Assembly (NCBI RefSeq): GCF_025602895.1
Contig: NW_026516212.1
Coordinates: forward strand, 1 to 64,000
DNA from: Polychytrium aggregatum
Taxonomy: Eukaryota; Chytridiomycota; Chytridiomycetes; Polychytriales
Reading direction: 5' to 3'
DNA length: 64,000 nt
Position 1 is the first letter of the stretch. The number at the start of each line of letters is the position of its first letter. Positions 31,310 through 49,722 of the stretch are shown piece after piece. The notes below the pieces were generated by a model. That model saw nothing but the letters and a program-made list of their open reading frames with translations. It had not been told where the DNA came from and searched no databases. The translations under genes were made by a program, and so were the position numbers.

Positions 31310-32122
31310 ATGTCGATCGCCGACTTTCGTCGCCAACTTCGAGAGATCGCCCCTTGTGTCGATCCCACTATTCACAGCTTCATCGAGCGCTGCGAGGAAC
31401 TCATCGATGCGTCCCTCCCACTCAAGGACGTTCGGTCGGCCTGGAAATCCCCCAAGTCCCTGCTCGAGAGGAGCGCCAAGAAGCTTCGTATACGCAAGTT
31501 TGAATTCTACCTCGCCTGGATGCACTACCTCGGTCTGGGGACACCTGTGGACACCGACAAGGCCTTTGCGCTGTGGAAGAAGGTCTACGAACGCAGCCAA
31601 GATCCGATCTTGATGAACCTGGCTGGCTTCATCGTCAAGTGTTGCTACGCTGCTGGCCAGTGCAGATCCTTCAATTGGTGCGAAGTTGAGATGAATACCT
31701 CCGAGTGGACTCTTGGCTGCGAACAAGTCCAGCTTCGATGCTTGCAGTTTTGCACACTCGGAGCTGAGCAGGGTGACTGGTTCTGCCAGTTCCTCAAGGC
31801 CCAATGCCTTCTCAATGGAGTTGGGCTCCAGGAACCCGATTTCGGCAGCGCATTTATGATTCTCGAAGGGCTAGCGCTACGAGGACATGCCATCGCACAG
31901 TGTCATCTCGGCGAGATGATTGAGGATGGACTCACTCCCCAGCCCAAGGACGGCCCCAGCATGACGTGGTGGTACGCACAGGCTGCAGCACAAGGGTACC
32001 CTGAAGCTCAATACGCTCTTGGACGCTGTCATTTGATGGACGATGATCGTCTCGACTTGGCCATGTTCTGGTTCGAGCTGGCAGCTCGGAACGGACATGG
32101 AGATGCGATTGCGATGCTTTGA
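31310..32122 (+). CDS. Sel1-like protein
   Basis: 270 residues, ATG at 31310 (MSIADFRRQLREIAP). An N-terminal helical region is followed by weak then clear Sel1 motifs (AFALWKKVYERSQDP, AIAQCHLGEMIEDGL, WYAQAAAQGYPEAQYALGRC, WFELAARNGHGDA). It is a paralogue of the split gene on the opposite strand: both share the LAGFIVKCCYAAG / LAGFLVHWCYAAG segment and the GDWFCQFLKAQC / GNWFCEFLLAQC segment. The two converge, with 70 bp between stops. Confidence 0.8.
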   Translation: MSIADFRRQLREIAPCVDPTIHSFIERCEELIDASLPLKDVRSAWKSPKSLLERSAKKLRIRKFEFYLAWMHYLGLGTPVDTDKAFALWKKVYERSQDPILMNLAGFIVKCCYAAGQCRSFNWCEVEMNTSEWTLGCEQVQLRCLQFCTLGAEQGDWFCQFLKAQCLLNGVGLQEPDFGSAFMILEGLALRGHAIAQCHLGEMIEDGLTPQPKDGPSMTWWYAQAAAQGYPEAQYALGRCHLMDDDRLDLAMFWFELAARNGHGDAIAML

Positions 32123-32300: not shown

Positions 32301-32527
32301 TGTCAAGACTGGACAACGGGGCAAGCAGGGAAGTGCGCAAGAGTCCTAATACAAGACTCGAACGTAGGGAGAGGAGCGGGGACTGGACTGGGACACAGAG
32401 TGTCAAGTGTAAAGCCAAAGTTTTATTCTAGATCCAAGGCTTAGGATACTAAAAATACAAAGTTCATTTCAAGGACAAGGCAAGATAACTAGGCAAGATA
32501 CAAGGCAAGGAAACTCGGTTCATGACA
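32301..32527 (-). repeat. D 3' LTR
   Basis: 227 bp, identical in appearance to 35136-35362. It contains a minus-strand AATAAAA poly(A)-type signal. Confidence 0.93.
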
Positions 32528-35135: not shown

Positions 35136-35362
35136 TGTCAAGACTGGACAACGGGGCAAGCAGGGAAGTGCGCAAGAGTCCTAATACAAGACTCGAACGT
35201 AGGGAGAGGAGCGGGGACTGGACTGGGACACAGAGTGTCAAGTGTAAAGCCAAAGTTTTATTCTAGATCCAAGGCTTAGGATACTAAAAATACAAAGTTC
35301 ATTTCAAGGACAAGGCAAGATAACTAGGCAAGATACAAGGCAAGGAAACTCGGTTCATGACA
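35136..35362 (-). repeat. D 5' LTR
   Basis: 227 bp. The bases beside it on the minus strand (CTTGGCAAGA) can pair at 9 of 10 positions with the complement of 35324-35333 inside the LTR, a possible decayed self-priming pair. Confidence 0.9.
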
Positions 35363-37886: not shown

Positions 37887-38061
37887 GTACCTTATGTCCC
37901 GGTAATGGAGTGACAAGCAGAGTACCTTACGCCACGGTAATGGAGTGACAAGTAGAGTACCTTACGCCACGGTAATGGAGTGACAAGCAGAGTACCTTAC
38001 GCCACGGTAATGGAGTGACAAGCAGAGTACCTTACGCCACGGTAATGGAGTGACAAACAGC
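37887..38061. repeat. 35-bp tandem repeat, five units
   Basis: Unit starts GTACCTTACGCCACG and continues GTAATGGAGTGACAAGCAGA. Units begin at 37887, 37922, 37957, 37992 and 38027, with one to four substitutions among them. The last unit blends into Fanzor-derived sequence (GACAAACAGCAGTACTTC). There are no unique spacers, so it is not a CRISPR array. Confidence 0.92.
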
Positions 38062-38371
38062 AGTACTTCAGCCTGACTCGGCGACGGCGATTCAAGCGAC
38101 TCGATCTCCACAGCAAGCGACAGCGCACTGCCCACGAGATGTGCAAGCAGGTCATTGACCAGGTACCACCGGAGACCGAGGTGGTGATTGCCTTTGGGAA
38201 TGCCTCCTGGAAGCAATGGGATGGATATGCGTCCAGTCCACAGAGGCTCGGAATCGCCAAGTATTTCGCGCAGTTCACCCACCAGAGACACCCACAAGGA
38301 CAGGAAACAATCGCACGGTCTGTGTCGCTGATGCCAGGAAGGAACTGTCCCGTTTCTTTCTGGTTTGACTG
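38051..38371 (+). pseudogene. Relic right end of a second Tc1-Fanzor element
   Basis: 38051-38297 matches Fanzor codons ~680-762 of the full gene (RRRRFKRLDLHSKRQR, VVIAFGNASW) at roughly 90% by eye. The zinc finger and RuvC-III part is deleted, and 38299-38371 matches the conserved 3' end of the full element, finishing with the same 26-bp right TIR (38346-38371) followed by TA. It is dead as a gene, but the right-end region that would encode the guide RNA scaffold is partly kept. It lies 44 bp before the left TIR of the full element. Confidence 0.85.
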
Positions 38372-38417
38372 TATATTCAAGGTCGTTCTGTCAATCTCAG
38401 AAGGCAAGTCTGAGATA

Positions 38418-38443
38418 CAGCCAATCCAATAAAAAACGGGACA
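38418..38443 (+). repeat. Left TIR of the Tc1-Fanzor transposon
   Basis: Starts CAGCCAATCC, ends AAACGGGACA, preceded by TA. With the relic right TIR at 38346-38371 it forms a ~98-bp imperfect palindrome. Confidence 0.88.
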
Positions 38444-38500
38444 CCCAGGTTTTGACCATTGATCGAATATTTTGTTACCCAAAACCATCGCGCGCTGGCC

Positions 38501-39433
38501 ATGACCATTCGCCACACATCCGACTTTCGCACCGCCGCATTGCGATGCTACGCCCTCATCCATAGCCTGCGTAAGGTCGCCTCCATATTCAGTGTATCCA
38601 AGAGCACCATCCATCGATGGCACCGAGGATGCAAGCTGGATGACCCATCCCGGGTCCCAGCTCGCAGATCCACTTTCTTCGAGCAGGCATGTCCAGTCAT
38701 TCGCACCCTGATTGAACAGGACCCGTTCCAGACTGGTCCTGTGTTGCGGTGCAAGCTCGAGTCCATCCTCCAGAGGAAAGTATCACTCTCACTCTGCCAC
38801 ACTGCCATCCAGCGAGCAGGCCTCTCACACAAGAGGGCAACACACCTCTACAAGTCCAAGCGACTGGATGAGCGAGTGGCACAGTTCAGGGACCAGGTCC
38901 GCTCCATCGACCCGCGGCGATTCGTTTTTGTCGATGAGACAGGGATCAGGAGATCCATTTTCCCTCTCTACGGATACTCACCGAAGGGCGTCCCACTCCG
39001 TCAGCGCAATCACATGAAGCACAAGTCTGTCTCGGCTGCATTTGCCATCAACCACTCTGGTGTGCTGCATCGCATGTACATCCCCACAACATTCAAGACA
39101 CACTCGATGGTCGAGTTCTTTGAGCGAGCGGCCTTCCCAGATGGCTCTGTGATTGTGATGGACAATGTCAGCATGCACAAGACAATGGCTGTCCTGGACT
39201 GCATCGAGCGCCGAGGATGGTCAGTGATCTTCACCCCATCTGCTTCACCCGACTTCAATCCCATCGAGAACTTCTTTGGGATTGTGAAGCATCAGTACAG
39301 GAAGGCAGCAGCGCTGAATGCGTCTGAGGGGTTCAAGATCGGGATGGTGACCCTGTTCGAGTCCGCCGTGCGGAGGGTGCTTCCAGATGTCTTCCCACCG
39401 CTGATTGAGCGCGCGATGCGTTTCTGGGCGTGA
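38501..39433 (+). CDS. Tc1/IS630-like DD34E transposase
   Basis: 310 residues, ATG at 38501 (MTIRHTSDFRTAALR). An N-terminal helix-turn-helix (RKVASIFSVSKSTIHRWH) should bind the TIRs, with a second HTH-like region around LSLCHTAIQRAGLSHK. The catalytic triad is complete: D in FVFVDETGIRR, D in VIVMDNVSMHK, and E in DFNPIENFF, with 34 residues between the last two, the DD34E spacing of Tc1-like and IS630-like enzymes. It excises and inserts DNA at TA. Not frameshifted, so the element may be autonomous apart from damage by A2. It is followed after 87 bp by Fanzor. Confidence 0.93.
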   Translation: MTIRHTSDFRTAALRCYALIHSLRKVASIFSVSKSTIHRWHRGCKLDDPSRVPARRSTFFEQACPVIRTLIEQDPFQTGPVLRCKLESILQRKVSLSLCHTAIQRAGLSHKRATHLYKSKRLDERVAQFRDQVRSIDPRRFVFVDETGIRRSIFPLYGYSPKGVPLRQRNHMKHKSVSAAFAINHSGVLHRMYIPTTFKTHSMVEFFERAAFPDGSVIVMDNVSMHKTMAVLDCIERRGWSVIFTPSASPDFNPIENFFGIVKHQYRKAAALNASEGFKIGMVTLFESAVRRVLPDVFPPLIERAMRFWA

Positions 39434-39520
39434 ATCATACCATCGAAAAAGTGCGTCATAATCACCCTTGGTTTTTTCTTGCCTATAGGTAGAATCAACG
39501 GGGTGTCGAAATCGCGACAG

Positions 39521-42073
39521 ATGCCTCCCCGCAAGAAAAAATCCCCGCCTGACCCAAATCCAGATCCTGGACAACCCAGTGACGCACCTGCTGACAAGAA
39601 ACCCGTCATCAAATCATGTCGTGCCTGTGGATTGACCAACCACGTCAAGCCATTCACCAAGAAATGCAAGGCCCGAACCGAGTTGGCCCCCCCTTCTGAC
39701 TCGGCGTCTGCCTTTGGCGCCGTTTGCCAAGCACCCCCTCCAGACGAGTCCAGCGAAGACATCGCCGTTCCGGCCCTCGTGGTCGAGATGCCTGCACCAA
39801 AAGTCCCTGTATGTACCACGTGTGGGGAAGAGGGTCATGCCAGAAGCAGCAGCTCGTTGTGTTCAAAAAAGAACCCCCTCTGGAGCTCTACCGAGCCCGA
39901 CTGTGGTCCAAACGAGTATGCCAAGGCAGAGTACTCGGTCATCAAGTGCACCCTCGACACCATCATCAAGAACGATGCCTTGCACGACAAGATCGAGGAG
40001 ACTGTCCGGGCTATGACACACGTGCAGTACGAAGCATCTCGGCTCCTGGAGCTGCATCTCAGGCGATGCTTGGACGAGGGCATCACCATCCCCACTGTGT
40101 CGTCGAGTGACCCTTCGTTCGTTCGAAAGTGTTTCAACATGGTGCATACCGGAGCTACAGATGTCAAGAATGGCACGACCCAAGAAGACAAGCACCTCCT
40201 CGACACCTATGAGCTGTATCGAAGTACATGGGGTGGATCGTGTGCCCTACCTCCTGTAACCCTCCCAAAGGGCACTGGTTCACAGGTCCTCACATTGGCT
40301 GTCAAGACCTATGCAATCAACTGTGAGACACACATTCTCGATCGATATTGGTCCCTTCTACGCCGATTCTGCAATCTGGCCCTGATTGCTCCCAAGGATG
40401 TCAAGCGACATACACACGTCGATGAGTGTATGAAGCTGATGGAGAATCCCCTCTCCGATACACTCCTCGGTGATCTGAGGAAATCCTTCGCCCACCATGC
40501 CGACCAGCTCTACATCTTTCGCTACACAAGCCAACAGGACCTGTACAAAGTCGTACCAGTATTGGCCAGTGAAGTCTCTCAGCTGACCCACCGAAAGGAG
40601 ACACTATTCGTGGCGACCATTCGAAACAGAATCATCCCCAGGCTCGTGAGGGATACCGATGATCTGAAAGGAGAGTGTGGACGACTGAACGAGGAGATGT
40701 GTCGCGCGATCGAACGAAGGCAGTCGGATCAATACAACGCACTCCACAAACGGCACGAGGAGGTGGAGAAGCAGGTCACCGTCAACACGAAGCGAATCAA
40801 GCGATTGACCGACCGACTTGCTCAGACCAGGAAACGACACAACGTCCCTCGAGCACAGTGCACCTTGGTCCCGCTCTGCGATGCCAGAGCCAAGTATGTC
40901 AAGCTCGACACCAAAGCATTGTGGGAGTTCCTTGGTTCCCAGAAGGGTACTGGTTTCAAGTGGAACGACCTGAAGACCAAGGTCAATGGCACCACAAAAC
41001 AAGAGATCTTCTGGCGAAGGACCTTCAAGCTGGAGTCGAGACTCTTTGGTGCCAGGAAAGAGGGGAAGCAGCTCTTTGGTTGCGAGATCAGCACCGATGG
41101 GGTCGGGTGCTCGATCACCACACTCAGATATAAGATCCTGGAGAAGAAGGGCCCCGATGCCAAGCCGGTACCCAAGACCAAGGTGAACACACTCACTCCC
41201 GAGCAGAAGATCCAGACCAGGGTCGGTCCCATTGACGACTCTCGGACCACATGGATCGGGATCGACCCTGGAGTGGGATCGATCTTCACCGCTGTCAATC
41301 GAGCACCCGGTCAACCATCCATCCAGGAGCAAGACGGTGTCAAGGTGACCAAGGCACAGCGCGCCAACGAGAAGATCGTGTCGTTCTCCAACAAGGAGTA
41401 CCAGCATCGAACTGGCACCAGTCAGGCGACCAAGTGGATCCAGAGCACCCACAAGGCCCTTGATCTGCAGGAATGGATGAGCACCACACCAAGTCCCAAG
41501 ATCCCCGGGGTGGCCCCCTTCCTGCGATACATTCGCCATGTGTTCGATGGAGACATGCTGGACAAACAGCTGTACTTCAACCTGACCCGGCGACGGCGAT
41601 TCAAGCGACTCGATCTCCACAGCAAGCGACAGCGCACTGTCCACGAGATGTGCAAGCGAGTCATCGACCAGGCAGCAAGGGAGACCGAAGTGGTGATTGC
41701 CTTTGGGAATGCATCCTGGAAACAGGGGAAGGGATATGCCTCCAGTCCCAGGAGACTCAGGTTTGCCAAGTACTTTGAGCAATTCCACCATCACCAGAGA
41801 CGCCCACCAGACCCATCCGTCTCCAAGATCCATGTGTGCTCGGTGAACGAGTTCAACACATCCCAGGTGTGCTCACATTGTCGGGAAGCCAAGCGACTCG
41901 AGTCACCCGAGTATCTTGATATCGAGAAACCACACTTTGTACGGAGCTGTACAAGCTGCCATACGCTGTGGGATCGAGACATCAATGCAGCCAGGAACAT
42001 GATCTCGGTATGCCAGTCGATCATCGCCACAGGAGATCGACCGAGTGTATTCAAGACTGTGCTTCCGGTGTAA
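39521..42073 (+). CDS. Fanzor (Fanzor1, eukaryotic TnpB-like RNA-guided nuclease), C-terminus altered
   Basis: 850 residues, ATG at 39521 (MPPRKKKSPPDPN). N-terminal basic cluster, then two zinc-knuckle-like motifs (CRACGLTNHVKPFTKKC near residue 33; CTTCGEEGH near 99), helical wedge/REC-like parts and a long charged coil near 400-440. The RuvC core is complete: RuvC-I IGIDPGVGSIF near 580, the RuvC-II region EVVIAFGNASW near 723, zinc finger CSHC...CTSC at 784-812, and RuvC-III DRDINAARN near 817. TnpB/Fanzor proteins cut DNA with a guide RNA made from the element's own 3' end. The natural last six codons are replaced by V-stop because LTR A2 begins TGTAA here; catalytic parts are untouched. 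Confidence 0.92.
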   Translation: MPPRKKKSPPDPNPDPGQPSDAPADKKPVIKSCRACGLTNHVKPFTKKCKARTELAPPSDSASAFGAVCQAPPPDESSEDIAVPALVVEMPAPKVPVCTTCGEEGHARSSSSLCSKKNPLWSSTEPDCGPNEYAKAEYSVIKCTLDTIIKNDALHDKIEETVRAMTHVQYEASRLLELHLRRCLDEGITIPTVSSSDPSFVRKCFNMVHTGATDVKNGTTQEDKHLLDTYELYRSTWGGSCALPPVTLPKGTGSQVLTLAVKTYAINCETHILDRYWSLLRRFCNLALIAPKDVKRHTHVDECMKLMENPLSDTLLGDLRKSFAHHADQLYIFRYTSQQDLYKVVPVLASEVSQLTHRKETLFVATIRNRIIPRLVRDTDDLKGECGRLNEEMCRAIERRQSDQYNALHKRHEEVEKQVTVNTKRIKRLTDRLAQTRKRHNVPRAQCTLVPLCDARAKYVKLDTKALWEFLGSQKGTGFKWNDLKTKVNGTTKQEIFWRRTFKLESRLFGARKEGKQLFGCEISTDGVGCSITTLRYKILEKKGPDAKPVPKTKVNTLTPEQKIQTRVGPIDDSRTTWIGIDPGVGSIFTAVNRAPGQPSIQEQDGVKVTKAQRANEKIVSFSNKEYQHRTGTSQATKWIQSTHKALDLQEWMSTTPSPKIPGVAPFLRYIRHVFDGDMLDKQLYFNLTRRRRFKRLDLHSKRQRTVHEMCKRVIDQAARETEVVIAFGNASWKQGKGYASSPRRLRFAKYFEQFHHHQRRPPDPSVSKIHVCSVNEFNTSQVCSHCREAKRLESPEYLDIEKPHFVRSCTSCHTLWDRDINAARNMISVCQSIIATGDRPSVFKTVLPV

Positions 42074-42377
42074 CGTCCACTACTGGGACGTTGGGGCAAG
42101 ACGGGGAGGGAGGGGGTACAAGACAAGACAGGACGGGGCAGAACAGGGCGGTGCTAGGCTACTCTAGCGGACGGGTGAGCTCGGGGAGCACTTACGTTTA
42201 TTCACGATAAAACCGAACTCCAGACAAACGGGGGGAACGGGGGCAACCCGCAGGTATACCCTGCGGTGGCCTGCCTGCGGTGCGTGAAAACGCAAAGCGC
42301 AGCACAGGTCACGACCCACTGCGCCGCGCAGTACGCGCAGTACGCGCAGCACAGCGTCGGAGATACCATCTCCTACA
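42069..42377 (-). repeat. A2 3' LTR
   Basis: 309 bp; plus-strand start TGTAACG supplies the new stop codon of Fanzor. It has small hairpins at both tips (AACGTCC/GGACGTT and GGAGAT/ATCTCC) and a minus-strand AATAAA. Confidence 0.95.
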
Positions 42378-42386
42378 CTCCCACAC

Positions 42387-45300
42387 TTAAGAAGGCTTCC
42401 TGCGAGGAGCCCTGCGTGTGCTCTTTATTTGGGGCTCCTCGAGGTGTTTACCGTATTTACTCAGCTCCTCGGGTGCATGGGACAAGTCCTCCAGTGTTTG
42501 CCATGTGTTGCCCGAGTGTGGGTAACCAACCCACTTGACATAAAACCGAAGTGACCCATCAGCCACTTTCTTGTGCCTCACGATCCTTTCGACTTCATAT
42601 TCTTGAGTATAGTATTGTCCGAGGTCGTCTTCCAGTGGTGCGTCGTCCGGGACACCTTCGTCGGCGTCGGGGAACTGTGCTGGACTGCGGGTCGTGTGGC
42701 GACGCAGCTTGGACACATGGAAGACAGGATGGAGCTTGCTTCCAGGTGGCAAGTCCAACAGGTAGTTGAGGGGACTGGGTCGGGCCGCTATCTTGAACGG
42801 TCCTCGGTACTTGGGCAACAACTTCTTTGACTGGGCTTCGGGGACCTTGATGTTGTCGGCGTCCAGGTAGACAAGGTCTCCAACTTCAAAGGAGACATCC
42901 TGGTGTCGGCGGTCGTAGTACTTCGCCATCACTTGTTGCGCATCCGTGAGCGCGTCGGCGATCATCTTGTGTCGGACTTGATGATCTTTGACAAAGGCAC
43001 TTGGTTTGGGAGGCAATCCAGCCGTGGACTCGGTCAGTGTCAAGGAGGTGGGAACATCAGGCTGGAATCCGTAGAGCGCCTCAAAGGGGCTCAAGCCAGT
43101 TGTGCTCGACTTGGCGGTGTTGTATGCAAACTCTGCATGACTCAGCTGTATGTCCCAGTCGTCTTGGCTGGTCGAGGCGTATGTCCTCAGGTATTGCTCG
43201 AGGGTGCGGATCGTCCGCTCGGACTGTCCATCCGTTTGTTGGTGGTGCGAGGTTGACATGTTCAGCTTGGTGCCGAGATGGTCGAACAGACTTGTCCAAA
43301 ACAAGGAGGTGAATCGGGGGTCTCGATCACTGACGATGGACTTTGGGAGGCCGTGGTGCTTGAACACATGCTTGAAGAACAGCAGTGCAAGGTCAGGCGC
43401 GGAGCATGTCGTCTGGCACGGCACAAAGTGTGCCATCTTGCTGAACCTGTCGACAAAGACAGCGATTGCATCGTGGTCCAACTTGGTCGTCGGTAGATGC
43501 GTGATGAGATCCATGGACATGCTGGTCCAGGGGCGGTCGGGAACAGGCAGGGGTTGCAGCAATCCTTGCTCTCGGGTCGTGCGTGACTTGACCATCTTGC
43601 AGGTATGGCAGGACTCGATGTACTTCTCGACGGTGCGCTTCATTCCAGGCCAGTATGCGACTTTGGCCAGTCGGTCGTATGTCTTCTCGACTCCAAAGTG
43701 TCCAGCGAGGGGCGAGTCGTGGACCTCTTGGAGCAACTTGGTCTTCAACGACGGAATGTCCGGCACACAGACACGGCTGTCCTTCTTCAGGAGGAGCAGG
43801 CCATCACGCACTGTGTACTCGGATGATTCGTCGTCCTTGGGGAGCTTAGACACCTTTCGGAACAGTTCTCCGAACTGTTTGTCGTTGGCGATGTTGTCTC
43901 GGACAACATCCAGCATCGTGTTGTCGACACTGACAGTCGACTCGTACAGTGACGCCAATTGGTAGTCGGGGCGTCGGGACAGTGCGTCAGGCACCACATT
44001 GAGTTTGCCTTTCTGGTATACAACCTCGTAGTTGTACTCGGCGAGGAACTCCATCCATCGCGCTTGGCGTCGGCTCAGGTTCTTCTTGGTGTCGAGGTAA
44101 CGCAGTGACTGGTGGTCCGTCACAATCTTGAAGGGCTTGGCGGTACCGTGGAGGTACACTCGGAACTTCTGCAGCGCGTAGATGATCGCAAGCTGCTCCT
44201 TCTCGTGCACGGGATAGTTGATCTCGTGTTGGGACAGTTTGCGCGACTCGAAGGCAACGGGCCTTCCCTCCTGCATCAAAACAGCTCCCACCGCAAAGTC
44301 GGAGGCGTCGGTGTGCACGGAGACATCCGTGTTCGGGTCGAACACAGCGAGGACAGGAGCGTTCGTCAAGGCGTGCTTGAGGGTCTCGAACGCTTGGCGT
44401 TGTGGGTGGTCCCACACGAAGGGGCACTCTTTGCGGAGTAGGTCTGTGAGTGGACCGGCAGTGCGCGCCAGATCGGGGATGAATCGGCGGTAGTAGTTGA
44501 CGAGACCGAGAAACGACTGCACGTCAGAGACGCATGCGAGCGGCGGCCACTCGACCACAGACTTGACCTTGGCGGGGTCGACTTCGATTCCTCTTCCTGA
44601 GACAACGTGTCCCAGGAACGGGACTTGATTCTTGAAGAACTCACACTTGGACAGTTTGGCATACAACTTGTGCTCGCGTAGCTTGGCCAGCACGCGGGCG
44701 ACATGACCTTCATGGGTCGCTTCATCCTTGCTGTACACAAGGATATCATCCAGGTACACGATGACAGAGTTGTCGAGCTCTTGGCGGAACACATCGTTCA
44801 TCAGCTGCATGAACGTGGCAGGTGCGTTCGTCAATCCGAACGGCAGCACTAGGAACTCGTACAGTCCGTAGCGAGTCCTGAAGGCGGTCTTGTGGACATC
44901 ATCCTCGTGGATGCGGATCTGATGGTAGCCTGAGCGGAGGTCTATCTTGCTAAAGACCTTTGCTCCACTCAGACGATCCATCAACTCGTCGATCCTGGGC
45001 AACGGGTAGGTGTTCTTGATGGTCTGTTTGTTTAGTGCGCGATAGTCGACGCACATCCTGAGATCACCTTCTTTCTTCTTGACAAAGAGCACTGGTGCAC
45101 CATACGGTGACTGGCTCGGGCGGATGAACCCATGGGCGAGGAGGTCATCCAACTGGCGCTTGAGTTCGTCCATCTCCGTCAGCGACAGTTGGTACGTCGG
45201 TCTTGACGGAGGCGACGAGCCTGGTTCGATGTCGATGCGATGATCGACGGTGCGTTGGGGTGGCAGGCATTGTGGCAACTGGTCGGGGAATACGTCCTTG

Positions 45301-46304
45301 TACTCGTCGAGCAGCTTGGTCACCACAGGCGGGGGACCGGGACCGGCTTGGTCGGTGTCGTCGACCTCACGCACGACACAGAGGAACGACGTGTCCTTCT
45401 TGATCAGCCTCTTGAATTGCATGGCTGAGAGGAGAGGTGGCATGTTGGGTGAGGCCATGCCCTGCAGGACAATGTCAGGGCCAACACGGACAGTGCGGCC
45501 TTTCCAGTCGACGACTGGAGTCGGCTCGGCACGAGCAAGCCAGCTCATGCCGAGGATGGCATCGAACTTGGTGTCGATCACTTGGAACAACAGGACAGGA
45601 TGGTACTTGGGATGGAGGGCCACTCGCAGGACCACTTGGTGTGTGCACTGCTGCACACGATCGTCTGCAAGCGCCACACTCATCGGCGACTTCTTCTTGG
45701 TTGCATGTATGTTGAGCTCCTGGAGCAAGCGTCTGCTGACAAAGTTGCAGCTTGCTCCAGAGTCCACCATCATTCGGACGGTGTGACCTTGGACGGTGGC
45801 AGGGAGGTACAGCAGGGACTCTTCATGGTCCTCCTGCACAGCCTCCTGCACCATGACTTGACTTGGGGGAACGGGCGACACTTGGTCTTGGTTGGCTTCA
45901 TCACGGCCACTCGGACATTTTGGATAGGGTTCGGCCATTGCGGGGGCCTGCGGCGTCAGCACGCCATTGCACACGACGTCCACGGCTTGCGGACACATGT
46001 CGGAAGCATCCGACACACACGACTTGACAGGGGTGAGGGCACAGGCGGTCCTGTCCCTCAAGGGTTCTTGATTTTCTTTTTTGTTTTGGTTTTCAATTTT
46101 GGTTTTCTCTTCACGTTCGTGGAGAGGCAGGCGGCTTGCGCCACCATGCACCTCTCGCACGACGCACAACACTTGGTTTGTTTCTCCTTCGGGGGAGGGG
46201 GCGAGGTGAACTTCCTCTGGAGACGCGTGGACTGCATTGAGCAATCCACGGCGTTGGTCTCCTACTAGGGCTCCAGAGCCACCTAGTAGGGTCGGCCGTT
46301 TCCC
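42387..46304 (-). CDS. pol: A2 Pol polyprotein (-1 frame relative to Gag)
   Basis: Intact frame entered at the GGGAAAC slip site (46298-46304). Domains, counted from about 46319: retropepsin DSGAS near residue 185, RT (VDYRALN near 418; YLDD near 521), RNase H ([12 protein letters not shown]-type VHEKEQLAI) near 670-760, integrase zinc finger (HFGVEKTY ... CHTCK) near 880, DDE core ([32 protein letters not shown]), and a C-terminal chromodomain ([27 protein letters not shown]) near 1240. It lacks nothing expected of a Ty3-type Pol. Confidence 0.95.
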
Positions 46305-47104
46305 GACTTCATGGGGCACTCCTTGGCCTGGTGTCCCGGTCGGTGACAGAAGAAGCAGGAACCATGGCGGAGGTCCTCCTGCTTCTGTCTGTCCTTGGGG
46401 GAGACAGTGGCAGCTTGCTGGAACCGGGAGCGGGGAGGGCCACGAGCCTCCATGGCGTTGACGTCAACGTCCATGGGCTCAGGCATGGGTCTTGCGGGCG
46501 GGGCCGGGCGAGGCGGACGGGCTGGGACGTGATGAGACCGATGGCCGCCTGCCAGCTGCGGGTAGAACTGGCGGCCATGGTACTGGACGTTGTCGAGGTT
46601 CTCGGCAACGTCCATCATCACGTCCAGGGACTTGCGGGCATCAGGGTTGCTGGCGATGTACTCTCTGATCTTGGGCTTGAGGCCCTTCTGGAAGAGGTAC
46701 ATCGCATCAGCAGAGCCCAGCTCCTCAATCTGGGAGGAGAGGTCTTCAAACTCCTCGATGTAGCGGGTCACAGAACCACGCTGCACGAGAGAGTATAGCT
46801 TGTCACGGGCAATGAGTTCAGCATTGGGGCTGCCGAAGCGGCGACGGAGGCGGTCCTTGAAGTCGTCAAACACACCTTCGCTCTGCTCGTCGAACCCTTG
46901 GCGGCGGTACCAACGGTACGCCTGGTCCTTTAAGCAGAGCTTGGCGGCGACGATGTGGTGGGTGGGGGCGACTTGGGCAGCATCGAGGTAGTCCTCGAGT
47001 TGCTGCAGCCAGTCCTCCACCGAGGAGGAGCGGCTCTTCCCAGTAAACACTGGGGCACGGAAGGTCTTGAGGAAGGCTTCCGGAAGTGGGCGGGGGTTGC
47101 TCAT
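46283..47104 (-). CDS. gag: A2 Gag
   Basis: 273 residues, ATG at 47104 ([13 protein letters not shown]). Capsid core with [12 protein letters not shown] and [16 protein letters not shown], a Pro/Arg-rich linker, and one CCHC knuckle ([14 protein letters not shown]) just upstream of the slip site. It ends 15 bp after the heptamer. Same length as the A1 copy. Confidence 0.94.
46298..46304 (-). promoter_or_regulatory. -1 ribosomal frameshift site GGGAAAC in A2
   Basis: Gag frame reads tcG GGA AAC; the -1 frame is open into pol. The Gag stop TAG is four codons further. The same site in A1 is 16703-16709. Confidence 0.85.
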
Positions 47105-47208
47105 GGCAGGGGCAGGCTCCAGGGACAGAGAGGAGAGTCGGTCGGCAAGAGAGGCGGGATCCAGCTTGAGGATCTAGAAAGAGGACAAACAGGACGAAAA
47201 CAAGACGA

Positions 47209-47226
47209 GGATTTCCGATGCTACCA
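47209..47226 (-). promoter_or_regulatory. A2 primer-binding site, tRNA type
   Basis: The minus-strand sequence directly after the 5' LTR is TGGTAGCATCGG. TGG pairs with a tRNA 3' CCA end, and GCTACCA resembles initiator-Met tRNA ends. It has no complement in the A LTR, unlike B and C. Confidence 0.6.
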
Positions 47227-47535
47227 TGTAACGTCCACTACTGGGACGTTGGGGCAAGACGGGGAGGGAGGGGGTACAAGACAAGACAGGACGGGGCAGA
47301 ACAGGGCGGTGCTAGGCTACTCTAGCGGACGGGTGAGCTCGGGGAGCACTTACGTTTATTCACGATAAAACCGAACTCCAGACAAACGGGGGGAACGGGG
47401 GCAACCCGCAGGTATACCCTGCGGTGGCCTGCCTGCGGTGCGTGAAAACGCAAAGCGCAGCACAGGTCACGACCCACTGCGCCGCGCAGTACGCGCAGTA
47501 CGCGCAGCACAGCGTCGGAGATACCATCTCCTACA
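47227..47535 (-). repeat. A2 5' LTR
   Basis: 309 bp, identical in appearance to 42069-42377. It ends CTCCTACA and is followed by the duplication TCCGG. Confidence 0.95.
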
Positions 47536-47540
47536 TCCGG

Positions 47541-47674
47541 ACCCACCCAAAACAAAGTGATTGCCAACCAGGACGGGAAACAATCGCACGACCTGCCCAC
47601 TGGGGTCTACGGATCAGCAGACATGTGTCGCTGATGCCAGGAAGTGACTGTCCCGTTTCTTTCTGGTTTGACTG
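47541..47674 (+). ncRNA. Candidate Fanzor guide RNA (fRNA) scaffold region
   Basis: The part of the Tc1-Fanzor element between the original Fanzor stop (TGA at 47558-47560) and the right TIR. Two blocks are kept in the relic copy: GGACGGGAAACAATCGCACG (47571-47590) and TGTGTCGCTGATGCCAGG (from 47624) running into the TIR. In TnpB/Fanzor systems the guide RNA comes from this end and reads through it into the flank, which acts as the guide. The A2 insertion has moved it 5.5 kb from the Fanzor ORF. No RNA evidence is available. Confidence 0.5.
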
Positions 47675-49722
47675 TAAAGAGAGGATTTCATGCTATCCCA
47701 AGACAACAAATCACCTCGCTTGAAAACAAACAATTTCAAGATAACAATAACAAAGGTGTGCAAATCATGAAAGTACATTCTCGTGGATTCACCAGAATCG
47801 GAAATAGCCATCGAGCTCCAATTTTCGATCGAGTTTCCCCCAATGAACTCCTTCGCAGCAACTTCATCGAACCAATGAACGACGATTTCTTCCGCGGCAC
47901 GAAAGATACGCGCCTTCCTGGATTCGGGACGAATCGACTGGAAGAATGCGTTGATCTCGCTGTTGCCCTCGATGAGCTGCTTCACCGACTTGAAGTTGCC
48001 GGGGCTGGTGTCGATGGGCTGGGTGAAGGCGTGCTTGAGTGCAGCGACGTCGAGCGCCTGGAATGACCAAGACTCGTCAGGTTGCTCCTCGATGACGGGT
48101 TGAGCTGGGGGAGTCGCTTTCTGAACCGGAGCCGGAGGAGCCGTGGTTGCTGGCGTGGCCGGGGTGACAGGGGCCGTGGGTTCAGGAGCGGTGCCCAAGG
48201 TCGATTTGATTTCTCTGAAGATCAGGGTCACCATGCTCTCAGGAATCAATGGTTTTCCTTCCGCGGCAGTCTTGACGATGCTACTGAGAAAGCGCCCCGT
48301 GAGGCGCTCATCGGCTTCGATTTTCATCTTTGCCTTTCGTTCAGCGGATCGATTCATTGCTTCCAACTTGGCGAGCTCCAACTTGGAAGCATGGTCAAGG
48401 ACAGCATTGACCTTGTCCATGGGCATCGATACAGCGCACACATGATGGATGACTCGTTCCATCATCGTTTCACCATCGTTACCCGCATCGAGCTGATCGG
48501 CCTTCCTCTTGCGAGTCAGGGTAGAGCTCGTCGTGGGCAGCTGATCGACAACGACGGGTTCCTCAACAAAGGTGGTATCGCCATCCTCGGTGACCTCCTC
48601 CATGGTCTCGGGATCAGCGGCTCCGTTGTTGTCGAGGCTGCCTGGCTCCTCAACGATCAGATCGTCGTTGGAAGGAATGGGTGCTTCCACAGTGCTGCCG
48701 AGATGAGACGATCCATCGGGCTGGTTGGAAGTCTCGATCGATCCGGCAGAGCCGACGGGGGCCGGCAAGCCAATTGCTTCGGCTGCGTTGCTGGGGGGCT
48801 CCTGGTTGGCAAGATCGGGAGAGTCATCGAAATCCATCGCATCGGCGACTTGATCGCTATCTGGAGCTGGGTCAGCCAAGCCGGGTGAGACGCTGTGCGT
48901 GAGTGTGACCTCGATGATGGGTTCGGCGGAACGGGAGGTCTCGGGAACCACGGTTGCTTGTCCAGTGAGGAAGGTTTCGAGCTTTGTGAAATCTCTGTCG
49001 TGCGGGAAATCTCTTGAGACTCTATCTGAATCAAGGCAGACATTTTGGAATGGATGGACAAGTCTGTAGGGGTGTGGTCTGTAGTTGTTGATGATGGGGA
49101 ACTCCAAACCCTTGAAGAGCTTCTGGCGTTTTCGCTCGTATGCAGTGCCATATGCCCTTCTCCAAATCTCGCGACGAGCGATCGTGGTGTGGCAGATGAA
49201 GTATGGGCGAACCCTCTCCTGCTCGGCCAAGTCGTCGGGGCACACAAGAGCCACGTATACGTGGCGAAGAGCCTCGATCTCGTATTGATTGGCAAAGAAA
49301 TCGAAGTGGTGACTGAGCTCCAGTCCATATTCACCAATCTTTTCGAAATTGCGCTGAACAAGCTGATCGATCAAACGAAGCGTGTCGCCCCAATGATCTG
49401 CAGGACGATCCTCTTTGATCCTGTCGTATTGCTCAAGGAAATAAGTGAGCAACACGAAGATATATCGACGAACATACGCAATGTCGTCAATAGACCAGAT
49501 GCAAGAGGCAAAGACAGGGTGTCCATTCCCGTCGAAACCTCTGGGTCGATCGAGTTTGGGGTTGGTCATCTCGTACGTCAAGTTCCAGTGATCTACACCG
49601 CGGATTCTGGTCCTGACGTCCAAAGAGAAGTGCTCCCTATAGGGAGGAATGTGAGAGGCCACAGTGTTCTGGCGCCCATTAGTTCGGTGGAAGTGTAACG
49701 TATCCTTCTTCCTGCGAGGCAT
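47614..49722 (-). CDS. Unknown host protein with transposon-derived C-terminus
   Basis: 702 residues, ATG at 49722 (MPRRKKDTLHFHRTN). The N-terminal third looks folded (WNLTYEMTNPKLDRP, YVRRYIFVLLTYFLEQYDR, YEIEALRHVYVALVC). The middle is acidic, Pro/Ser-rich and disordered, followed by a helical segment with TRKRKADQLD and a coiled-coil-like stretch, then a C-terminal globular part. Family not recognised. The last 20 residues (YSQTRKKRDSHFLASATHVC) come from the right end and TIR of the Tc1-Fanzor transposon. Without it the gene would end LRLAF then stop at 38397-38399, giving exactly 689 codons. Conserved intergenic words upstream are shared with the LRR gene. Confidence 0.75.
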   Translation of the reverse strand: MPRRKKDTLHFHRTNGRQNTVASHIPPYREHFSLDVRTRIRGVDHWNLTYEMTNPKLDRPRGFDGNGHPVFASCIWSIDDIAYVRRYIFVLLTYFLEQYDRIKEDRPADHWGDTLRLIDQLVQRNFEKIGEYGLELSHHFDFFANQYEIEALRHVYVALVCPDDLAEQERVRPYFICHTTIARREIWRRAYGTAYERKRQKLFKGLEFPIINNYRPHPYRLVHPFQNVCLDSDRVSRDFPHDRDFTKLETFLTGQATVVPETSRSAEPIIEVTLTHSVSPGLADPAPDSDQVADAMDFDDSPDLANQEPPSNAAEAIGLPAPVGSAGSIETSNQPDGSSHLGSTVEAPIPSNDDLIVEEPGSLDNNGAADPETMEEVTEDGDTTFVEEPVVVDQLPTTSSTLTRKRKADQLDAGNDGETMMERVIHHVCAVSMPMDKVNAVLDHASKLELAKLEAMNRSAERKAKMKIEADERLTGRFLSSIVKTAAEGKPLIPESMVTLIFREIKSTLGTAPEPTAPVTPATPATTAPPAPVQKATPPAQPVIEEQPDESWSFQALDVAALKHAFTQPIDTSPGNFKSVKQLIEGNSEINAFFQSIRPESRKARIFRAAEEIVVHWFDEVAAKEFIGGNSIENWSSMAISDSGESTRMYFHDLHTFVIVILKLFVFKRGDLLSWDSMKSSLYSQTRKKRDSHFLASATHVC
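47649..47674 (-). repeat. Right TIR of the Tc1-Fanzor transposon
   Basis: Inner end TGTCCCGTTT, outer end TTTGACTG, followed by TA at 47675-47676. Identical to the relic right TIR at 38346-38371. Confidence 0.88.

Follow-up and report, generated by a model that had tools for sequence, protein, structure and literature searches.

Positions 38416 to 47676 of a 64,000-nucleotide stretch of Polychytrium aggregatum DNA (hereafter the window, G000:C2:1-64000) constitute a single Tc1/mariner element, which combines a DD34E transposase with a Fanzor1 gene and a structured right end. Sequence comparison showed two modules, a left terminal inverted repeat (TIR) with a Tc1-like transposase and a Fanzor1 with a structured right end and the right TIR, which occupy TA sites as one unit. 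We regard it as fairly probable that this is a composite element with an exchangeable Fanzor cassette and flank-guided retention by Fanzor, Fanzor cleavage and retention of the element being what we infer. More tentatively, insertion sites may be imprinted by the nuclease and not by the transposase, each exchangeable cassette retaining mainly insertions at its own motif: TTA for a second, type II cassette found elsewhere in the genome, and a looser motif for the type I cassette of the window. The copy in the window is damaged, because the insertion of a long terminal repeat (LTR) retrotransposon removes the last Fanzor codons and parts the frame from the right end. The features of the element are as follows.

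38416..38417: left TA target-site duplication (TSD), read from the sequence
38418..38443, + strand: left TIR, by inverted-repeat detection; this end recurs in other copies
38501..39433, + strand: Tc1-like DD34E transposase of 310 amino acids (aa), by open reading frame (ORF), DDE_3 and IS630 profile
39434..39520, + strand: junction where the exchangeable left half meets the Fanzor half; type II elements cease to be similar near the transposase stop
39521..42073, + strand: Fanzor1 reading frame, by ORF, motif alignment and structure ranking
41264..41266, + strand: RuvC-I aspartate of the GIDPG motif (D582), by alignment
41849..41980, + strand: rearranged RuvC-II glutamate E777, C4 zinc finger and RuvC-III D820, by alignment and the fingerprint given in PMC10711439
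47586..47676, + strand: putative omega-RNA scaffold of the right end, by conservation and consensus fold
47608-47612, pairing with 47672-47676: closing stem of the putative scaffold, with the TA duplication inside the stem
47649..47674, - strand: right TIR, by inverted-repeat detection and genome copies
47675..47676: right TA TSD, read from the sequence; the sequence downstream is the would-be guide

A first-pass annotation had proposed that one pair of TIRs and one pair of TA duplications enclose both proteins, and the 64.7-Mb, 418-contig assembly bore this out: six other copies share both ends and carry Fanzor inside. These six were found in one piece among ten fetched Fanzor loci (L069-L078) and measured 3787, 3785, 3786, 3786, 3657 and 3788 bp, with TA at both ends, so that five (3785-3788 bp) match the unit of about 3785 bp predicted after subtraction of the later insertion and one (3657 bp) is shorter. 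Both frames were open (>250 aa) in four of the six; L074 and L076 had no transposase frame of that length. The left and right TIRs with their TAs pair over 28 nt at 82%, or at about 21 of 26 positions without TA, and are therefore imperfect. When the joined flanks of nine insertion sites were compared with the whole genome, unoccupied counterparts with a single TA were found at two, L076 (four places, 98-99%) and L073 (one place, 98%). The other seven, the window's own site and a full type II site included, had no full-length unoccupied counterpart in the genome, and the same comparison gave none for a short chimeric copy whose left end is of type II. A search confined to the fetched sequences found none for four type II sites. 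Some insertion sites lie on two contigs with the same flank; these are assembly duplicates, which the genome counts include.

A second Fanzor remnant and an LTR element are also present at the locus, and transposase loci with another right half are common, as would be expected of two unrelated elements lying side by side or nested. However, the six copies that share both outer ends and have a TA on each side, together with the unoccupied counterparts, ruled out two adjacent elements, and with the few set lengths at which type II ends pair (below) they make any two-element origin extremely improbable.

The right flank of L074, the copy on contig C72, is identical over 63 bp to window positions 31854-31916, where it is unoccupied; the left flank is not found there.

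Thirty transposase loci (L039-L068) were fetched, six of which run into the type I Fanzor and 24 into other downstream sequence. The latter, type II, match at 95.7-97.1% from the left end through the transposase and part ways at its stop; at the protein level the transposases of the two types are 96-97% identical in the fetched loci. This downstream sequence is common to all 24 loci and encodes a second Fanzor in the four that were translated, the start of which was found in 22 of the 22 loci examined (L058 and L059 were left out). Over its N-terminal 415 aa the type II Fanzor is about 34% identical to type I, and its C-terminus, as read in one deletion copy, contains the late RuvC and zinc-finger residues. 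A search with it gave at least 101 matches of 94-100% (101 of 387 candidates scored). The type II right TIR is unlike that of type I, and of the 100 type II left ends that head the list, at least 57 have an exact type II partner on the right within 12 kb, a lower bound since inexact right ends were left out. These 57 copies fall at 3600-3800 bp (32), 3177-3599 bp (12), about 1114 bp (four) and below 400 bp (nine). Because the same left half joins a different Fanzor and right end in 24 of the 30 loci, the Fanzor half is, on sequence comparison, exchangeable. Rather than always being closed by another right TIR straight after the transposase, as the first-pass annotation had expected of a separate Fanzor element, the left TIR leads in this sister family into another Fanzor and its own right end. 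A sister family with a bare transposase was considered and rejected, as the 24 type II loci share the downstream sequence, Fanzor-coding in the four translated, and the single copy read from the class of about 1114 bp proved to be type II with an internal deletion. Within type I, the Fanzor segments of L076 and L077 drop to 85-91%, against 97-99.6% for the transposase, which points to recombination.

Three further arrangements of these ends were observed. L027 (G000:C157:642670-643266) is a 595-bp copy that combines the left end of type II with the right end of type I; beside it lies a complete type I copy that runs the other way. A pair of type-I-like right ends, roughly 2.5 kb apart and pointing towards each other, occurs in two places (G000:C268:131826-134307 and G000:C302:14056-16537), which would suit an element bounded by right ends on both sides. 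On C378, a Fanzor-I-like copy is preceded by only the last 53 bp of a transposase, and we therefore make no claim on the transposase partner of the Fanzor copies that are 80-86% identical.

The base before the left TA followed the cassette. In exact pattern counts over the genome, T preceded TA at 203 of 211 type II left ends (A, C or G at 8), against a background in which T precedes 16.5% of the 2806 TAs of the window, both strands counted. Unique type I left sites carried T 5, C 2, A 1 and G 1 (n=9), and the T share differed between the types (203/211 vs 5/9; Fisher p 0.0006). After the type II right TA, whole-genome exact counts gave A 35 and G 43; up to contig C360 the counts were A 26, C 50, G 38 (tallied by hand) and T 24 (n=138). 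Unique right sites of type I and its relatives, the remnant at 38373 included, had C 9, T 9, A 2 and G 1 (n=21, by hand). With a palindromic target, A should be as frequent after the right TA as T is before the left one, and the A of a symmetric TTAA followed only 26 of 138 right TAs. At four type II junctions TA flanked both ends, and no duplication extended beyond it. The -1 base lies directly 5' of TA and of the would-be guide-matching sequence, which is the position of a target-adjacent motif (TAM); as it is outside both the element and the RNA, we see no part for it beyond target capture or the recognition of empty sites. Since the flanking T differs by cassette under transposases that are 96-97% identical, the data favour Fanzor as the probable cause of the difference, and a TTA motif read by Fanzor and imprinted by selective retention would best explain the one-sided T-TA. 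No report of a flank signature specific to a Fanzor lineage was found in the Fanzor literature searched, most subscription papers lying outside it.

The same asymmetry could arise from the transposase if the left TIR-transposase half prefers T beside TA and the right half does not, Fanzor being uninvolved. We consider this a serious contender, if a rather doubtful one. The left and right TIRs differ, and left ends of the CAGYC kind show an excess of T as well (T 15, A 5 and C 4 among 24 exact matches listed, with a search pattern that excluded G, although at least one G site exists). Moreover, ten paired type II copies below 400 bp, which leaves no room for a Fanzor frame, had T in nine cases and A in one. 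Against this stand the 5/9 and 203/211 T shares under nearly the same transposase and the reported preference of the Tc1-like ZB, SB and Bari transposons for palindromic ATATATAT (PMC7913693, which describes Tc1-like targets as palindromic and footprints of 0-4 bp). In addition, the deletion derivatives that were read retain the right-end RNA region and could for that reason be served in trans.

For retention guided by Fanzor, we propose the following course. The transposase would cut and paste the element. The right end would be transcribed through TIR and TA into the flank, giving an omega-RNA with the right flank as guide, by which each copy would be programmed against its own empty site. 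Fanzor would then read a short motif ending in TA (TTA for type II) in an unoccupied homologue or an excised site and cut there, and repair from the occupied chromosome would restore or spread the element. Insertions at a motif readable by Fanzor would persist better, leaving a one-sided flank signature. As compatible ends are all that the transposase would need, nuclease, RNA and right end could swap jointly as a cassette, the Fanzor half. The many copies hint at a part for the nuclease in determining which insertions persist. The likeness to retention of bacterial insertion sequences (IS) drawn in the first-pass annotation gained only indirect backing, from the target-site asymmetry, the right-end fold and selection. 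If true, an imprint by the nuclease would amount to in vivo evidence from nature for a eukaryotic Fanzor that retains or spreads its transposon through cleavage of empty alleles. The genome is of interest as a natural experiment in which a single transposase serves two Fanzor cassettes and the one-sided signature in the flank goes with the cassette; the Fanzor-less derivatives with a retained, putative guide-RNA end add to this interest. The proposal predicts a type II TAM ending in TTA, a looser type I TAM and a guide equal to the right flank, all within reach of existing assays for TAM and retention.

No stretch of the element is more conserved than the right end. Its last 116 bp ahead of the right TA, counted from the TGA of L071, are identical in 15 of 15 pairs of the six copies; that of the window differs from these by one base, and other loci differ more. 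In an RNAalifold consensus of 12 aligned right ends, whose distant members are 85-90% identical to that of the window, UACGG paired with the terminal CUGUA around two further hairpins. Compared with 500 shuffles, 96.0% of cells paired vs 95.2% (reached by 34/500), double-change cells numbered 7 vs 3.6 (6/500) and the covariation score was 0.123 vs 0.106 (33/500). The fold energy of the 118-nt right end gave z -1.25; three right ends gave z -1.98, -0.90 and +1.43, and two of type II z -1.76 and -2.14. Conservation of this putative scaffold thus appears strong and its covariation modest. A comparison of the right end with Rfam yielded no match at the gathering threshold. Three deletion copies that were read (312, 385 and 1114 bp) retain at least 168 bp of the right end, which is the whole 3' noncoding region.

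The Fanzor frame of the window comprises 849 native codons to 42067, followed by a Val and a stop supplied by the LTR in place of the native C-terminus, which after VLP reads DPPKTK* in L071. Uninterrupted Fanzors are about 855 aa long in L071, L073 and L075; in L074, L076 and L077 a change of TGA to AGA extends the frame by some 28 codons into the right end. The RuvC motifs and zinc finger claimed in the first-pass annotation were all present: D582-P-G in RuvC-I, E777 six residues ahead of C784, the cysteines C784/C787/C810/C813, and R-D820. Alignment also identified the D-X-[TS][TS]-XX-C4 zinc finger-RD motif of Fanzor1 given in PMC3627910 and PMC10711439, and the TDG motif of the WED region named in PMC10711439 lies at residues 525-527. 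The D-to-E spacing of about 195 exceeds the 120-160 of the search pattern in that paper. In a ranking by predicted structure, SpuFz1 held ranks 1-4, PpFz1 6 and 9, GtFz1 11 and the mimivirus Fanzor2 23, with Cas12j (CasPhi) at ranks 5, 7 and 8 on the RuvC half. The predicted fold is thus nearest to solved Fanzor1 structures, in a model of moderate confidence, and the assignment to Fanzor1 is based on motifs together with profile and structure rankings.

The transposase frame runs from an ATG at 38501 to a stop at 39433, with 34 residues between the second D (VMDN) and the E (PIEN), in agreement with the complete DD34E enzyme noted before. It matched DDE_3 (PF13358) at 3e-23 and IS630 (NF033545) with 121 bits (cut-off 100) in profile searches; the N-terminal helix-turn-helix gave a weak HTH_23 match (E 0.0017, 18.6 bits vs a cut-off of 24.6).

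Ratios of nonsynonymous to synonymous change were below 1 in both proteins. For the type I Fanzor, dN/dS was 0.25-0.46 in 28 of 28 pairs of eight copies; pooled pN/pS was 0.47 for partial type II Fanzor frames (22 copies) and 0.18 for the transposase (30 copies), all figures being pairwise counts on related copies that are not independent. They speak for both proteins having been kept working during the spread. Fanzor might nevertheless be a hitchhiker that gains from the transposon and gives nothing back, acting elsewhere, for example by cutting competing elements with guides of other loci. Its role is given as unknown and a trans effect on other transposons has been proposed (PMC10432273), and internal-deletion copies without a whole Fanzor frame have been amplified. 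We nonetheless find a hitchhiker unlikely, as two diverged Fanzor lineages occupy the same slot with frames under purifying selection and conservation peaks in the right end, which would program self-targeting.

Several points weigh against retention by Fanzor as set out above. Eight of the 211 type II left ends have no T, and since at least three of these (C101:204944, C371:43637 and C376:136664) have a long open Fanzor frame of type II next to them, T is not obligatory. Independent insertion events are fewer than 211, because the left ends include assembly duplicates, and the type I data on the -1 base are thin, at nine sites. The -1 T of type II was counted as genomic because the transposase is shared with type I. 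As the two TIRs differ, an end-specific preference of the transposase is possible, and T also precedes TA in most short Fanzor-less copies. With regard to the putative RNA, two of the five covariation measures, pairs with a double change (241/500) and further pair types (481/500), do not exceed the shuffles. Fold energies lie just modestly under shuffles, with one distant sequence positive (z +1.4), and part of the right-end conservation could be coding, as the Fanzor frame extends into the right end in three of six copies. The Fanzor model reached a predicted local distance difference test score (pLDDT) of 63.6 and a predicted template modelling score (pTM) of 0.45, with a root-mean-square deviation of about 20 A to SpuFz1.

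A mariner transposase paired with Fanzor1 is a known kind of element and not a first (the first-pass annotation had noted Fanzor1 genes in mariner-like transposons), since PMC3627910 (Bao & Jurka 2013) describes mariner elements encoding both proteins, PUl-1 of Pythium ultimum and PGv-1 of Phaeocystis globosa virus, besides Fanzor-only relatives. Like the present element, these two have a mariner-type transposase and Fanzor1 bounded by TIRs and TA. Compared by description, the PGv-1 group is single-copy, whereas here there are many copies, two Fanzor lineages served by one transposase, and deletion derivatives. SPu-1 of Spizellomyces punctatus, with SpuFz1, shares a chytrid Fanzor1, TIRs, TA duplications and a right-flank guide (putative here), and SpuFz1 is the closest solved structure to the predicted fold of the present Fanzor. 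The 'ghost' copies of S. punctatus, which lack the Fanzor frame, resemble the deletion copies found here. According to PMC10432273 (Saito et al. 2023), there is no transposase between the SPu-1 ends, in contrast to the present element, and the TAMs are CATA for SpuFz1, against a proposed TTA for type II, and TTAAN for GtFz1. PpFz1 has the TAM ATN, and WED contacts to the TAM are variable (PMC11423790). In the Fanzor1 reRNA of SfAV and insect viruses (Yoon et al. 2023, PMC10711439), TIR and TSD lie in the predicted scaffold, as in the putative scaffold here; that element is non-autonomous and of unknown transposon family, and its expression has been measured. IS200/IS605 elements likewise join a transposase, TnpA, to an RNA-guided nuclease, TnpB, with a flank guide (putative here), but their TnpA is of the tyrosine type without TIRs or TSDs, in contrast to DDE cut-and-paste with TIRs and a TA duplication. 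TnpB has been described as a drive against element-free plasmids (PMC11870625), and what Fanzor does for hosts or transposons is described as unknown or little known (PMC10432273, PMC10711439).

Protein searches with the full-length Fanzor gave 0 matches among 8000 scored candidates, a single-protein PDB search nothing useful, and a phage tblastn weak matches only, covering about 15% of the query. The RuvC region matched 15 proteins, five of them annotated P. aggregatum proteins with 81-92% identical stretches (P0001-P0003, P0005 and P0006). One of these five proteins with Fanzor fragments is named for a male sterility domain, one is kinase-like and the rest are uncharacterized; they represent either gene-model fusions or exaptation.

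The insertion that interrupts Fanzor is, as annotated before, a later one; its 300-nt direct repeats are identical, and it displaces the mariner right end by 5.5 kb. The remnant of an older related Fanzor element, which the first-pass annotation had overlooked, precedes the left TA. Their features are listed below.

42069..47535, - strand: Ty3/gypsy chromodomain LTR retrotransposon, a later insertion that is not part of the mariner element; limits read from the sequence
42069-42377 and 47227-47535: LTRs of this insertion, read from the sequence
42064-42068 and 47536-47540: its TSD, TCCGG, read from the sequence
46283-47104 (gag) and 42387-46319 (pol), - strand: its genes, by ORFs and domain matches
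38052..38373, + strand: 3' remnant of an older related Fanzor element (RuvC part, right end and TA), by direct repeats

The remnant matches the window element in direct repeats of 85% over 233 nt, 96% over 53 nt and 84% over 32 nt. It has the same right end, and its TA at 38372-38373 lies 42 bp ahead of the left TA. A 35-bp tandem repeat array at 37887-38061 adjoins it at 38052. Downstream, a 702-aa frame without a Pfam match occupies window positions 47614-49722 (- strand), its last 20 or so codons running antisense through the right TIR and the putative RNA end; insertion of the element may have replaced the C-terminus of the gene behind it. Further upstream, window positions 32301-32527 and 35136-35362 form identical 227-nt direct repeats 2835 bp apart, which are probably the LTRs of another recent element.
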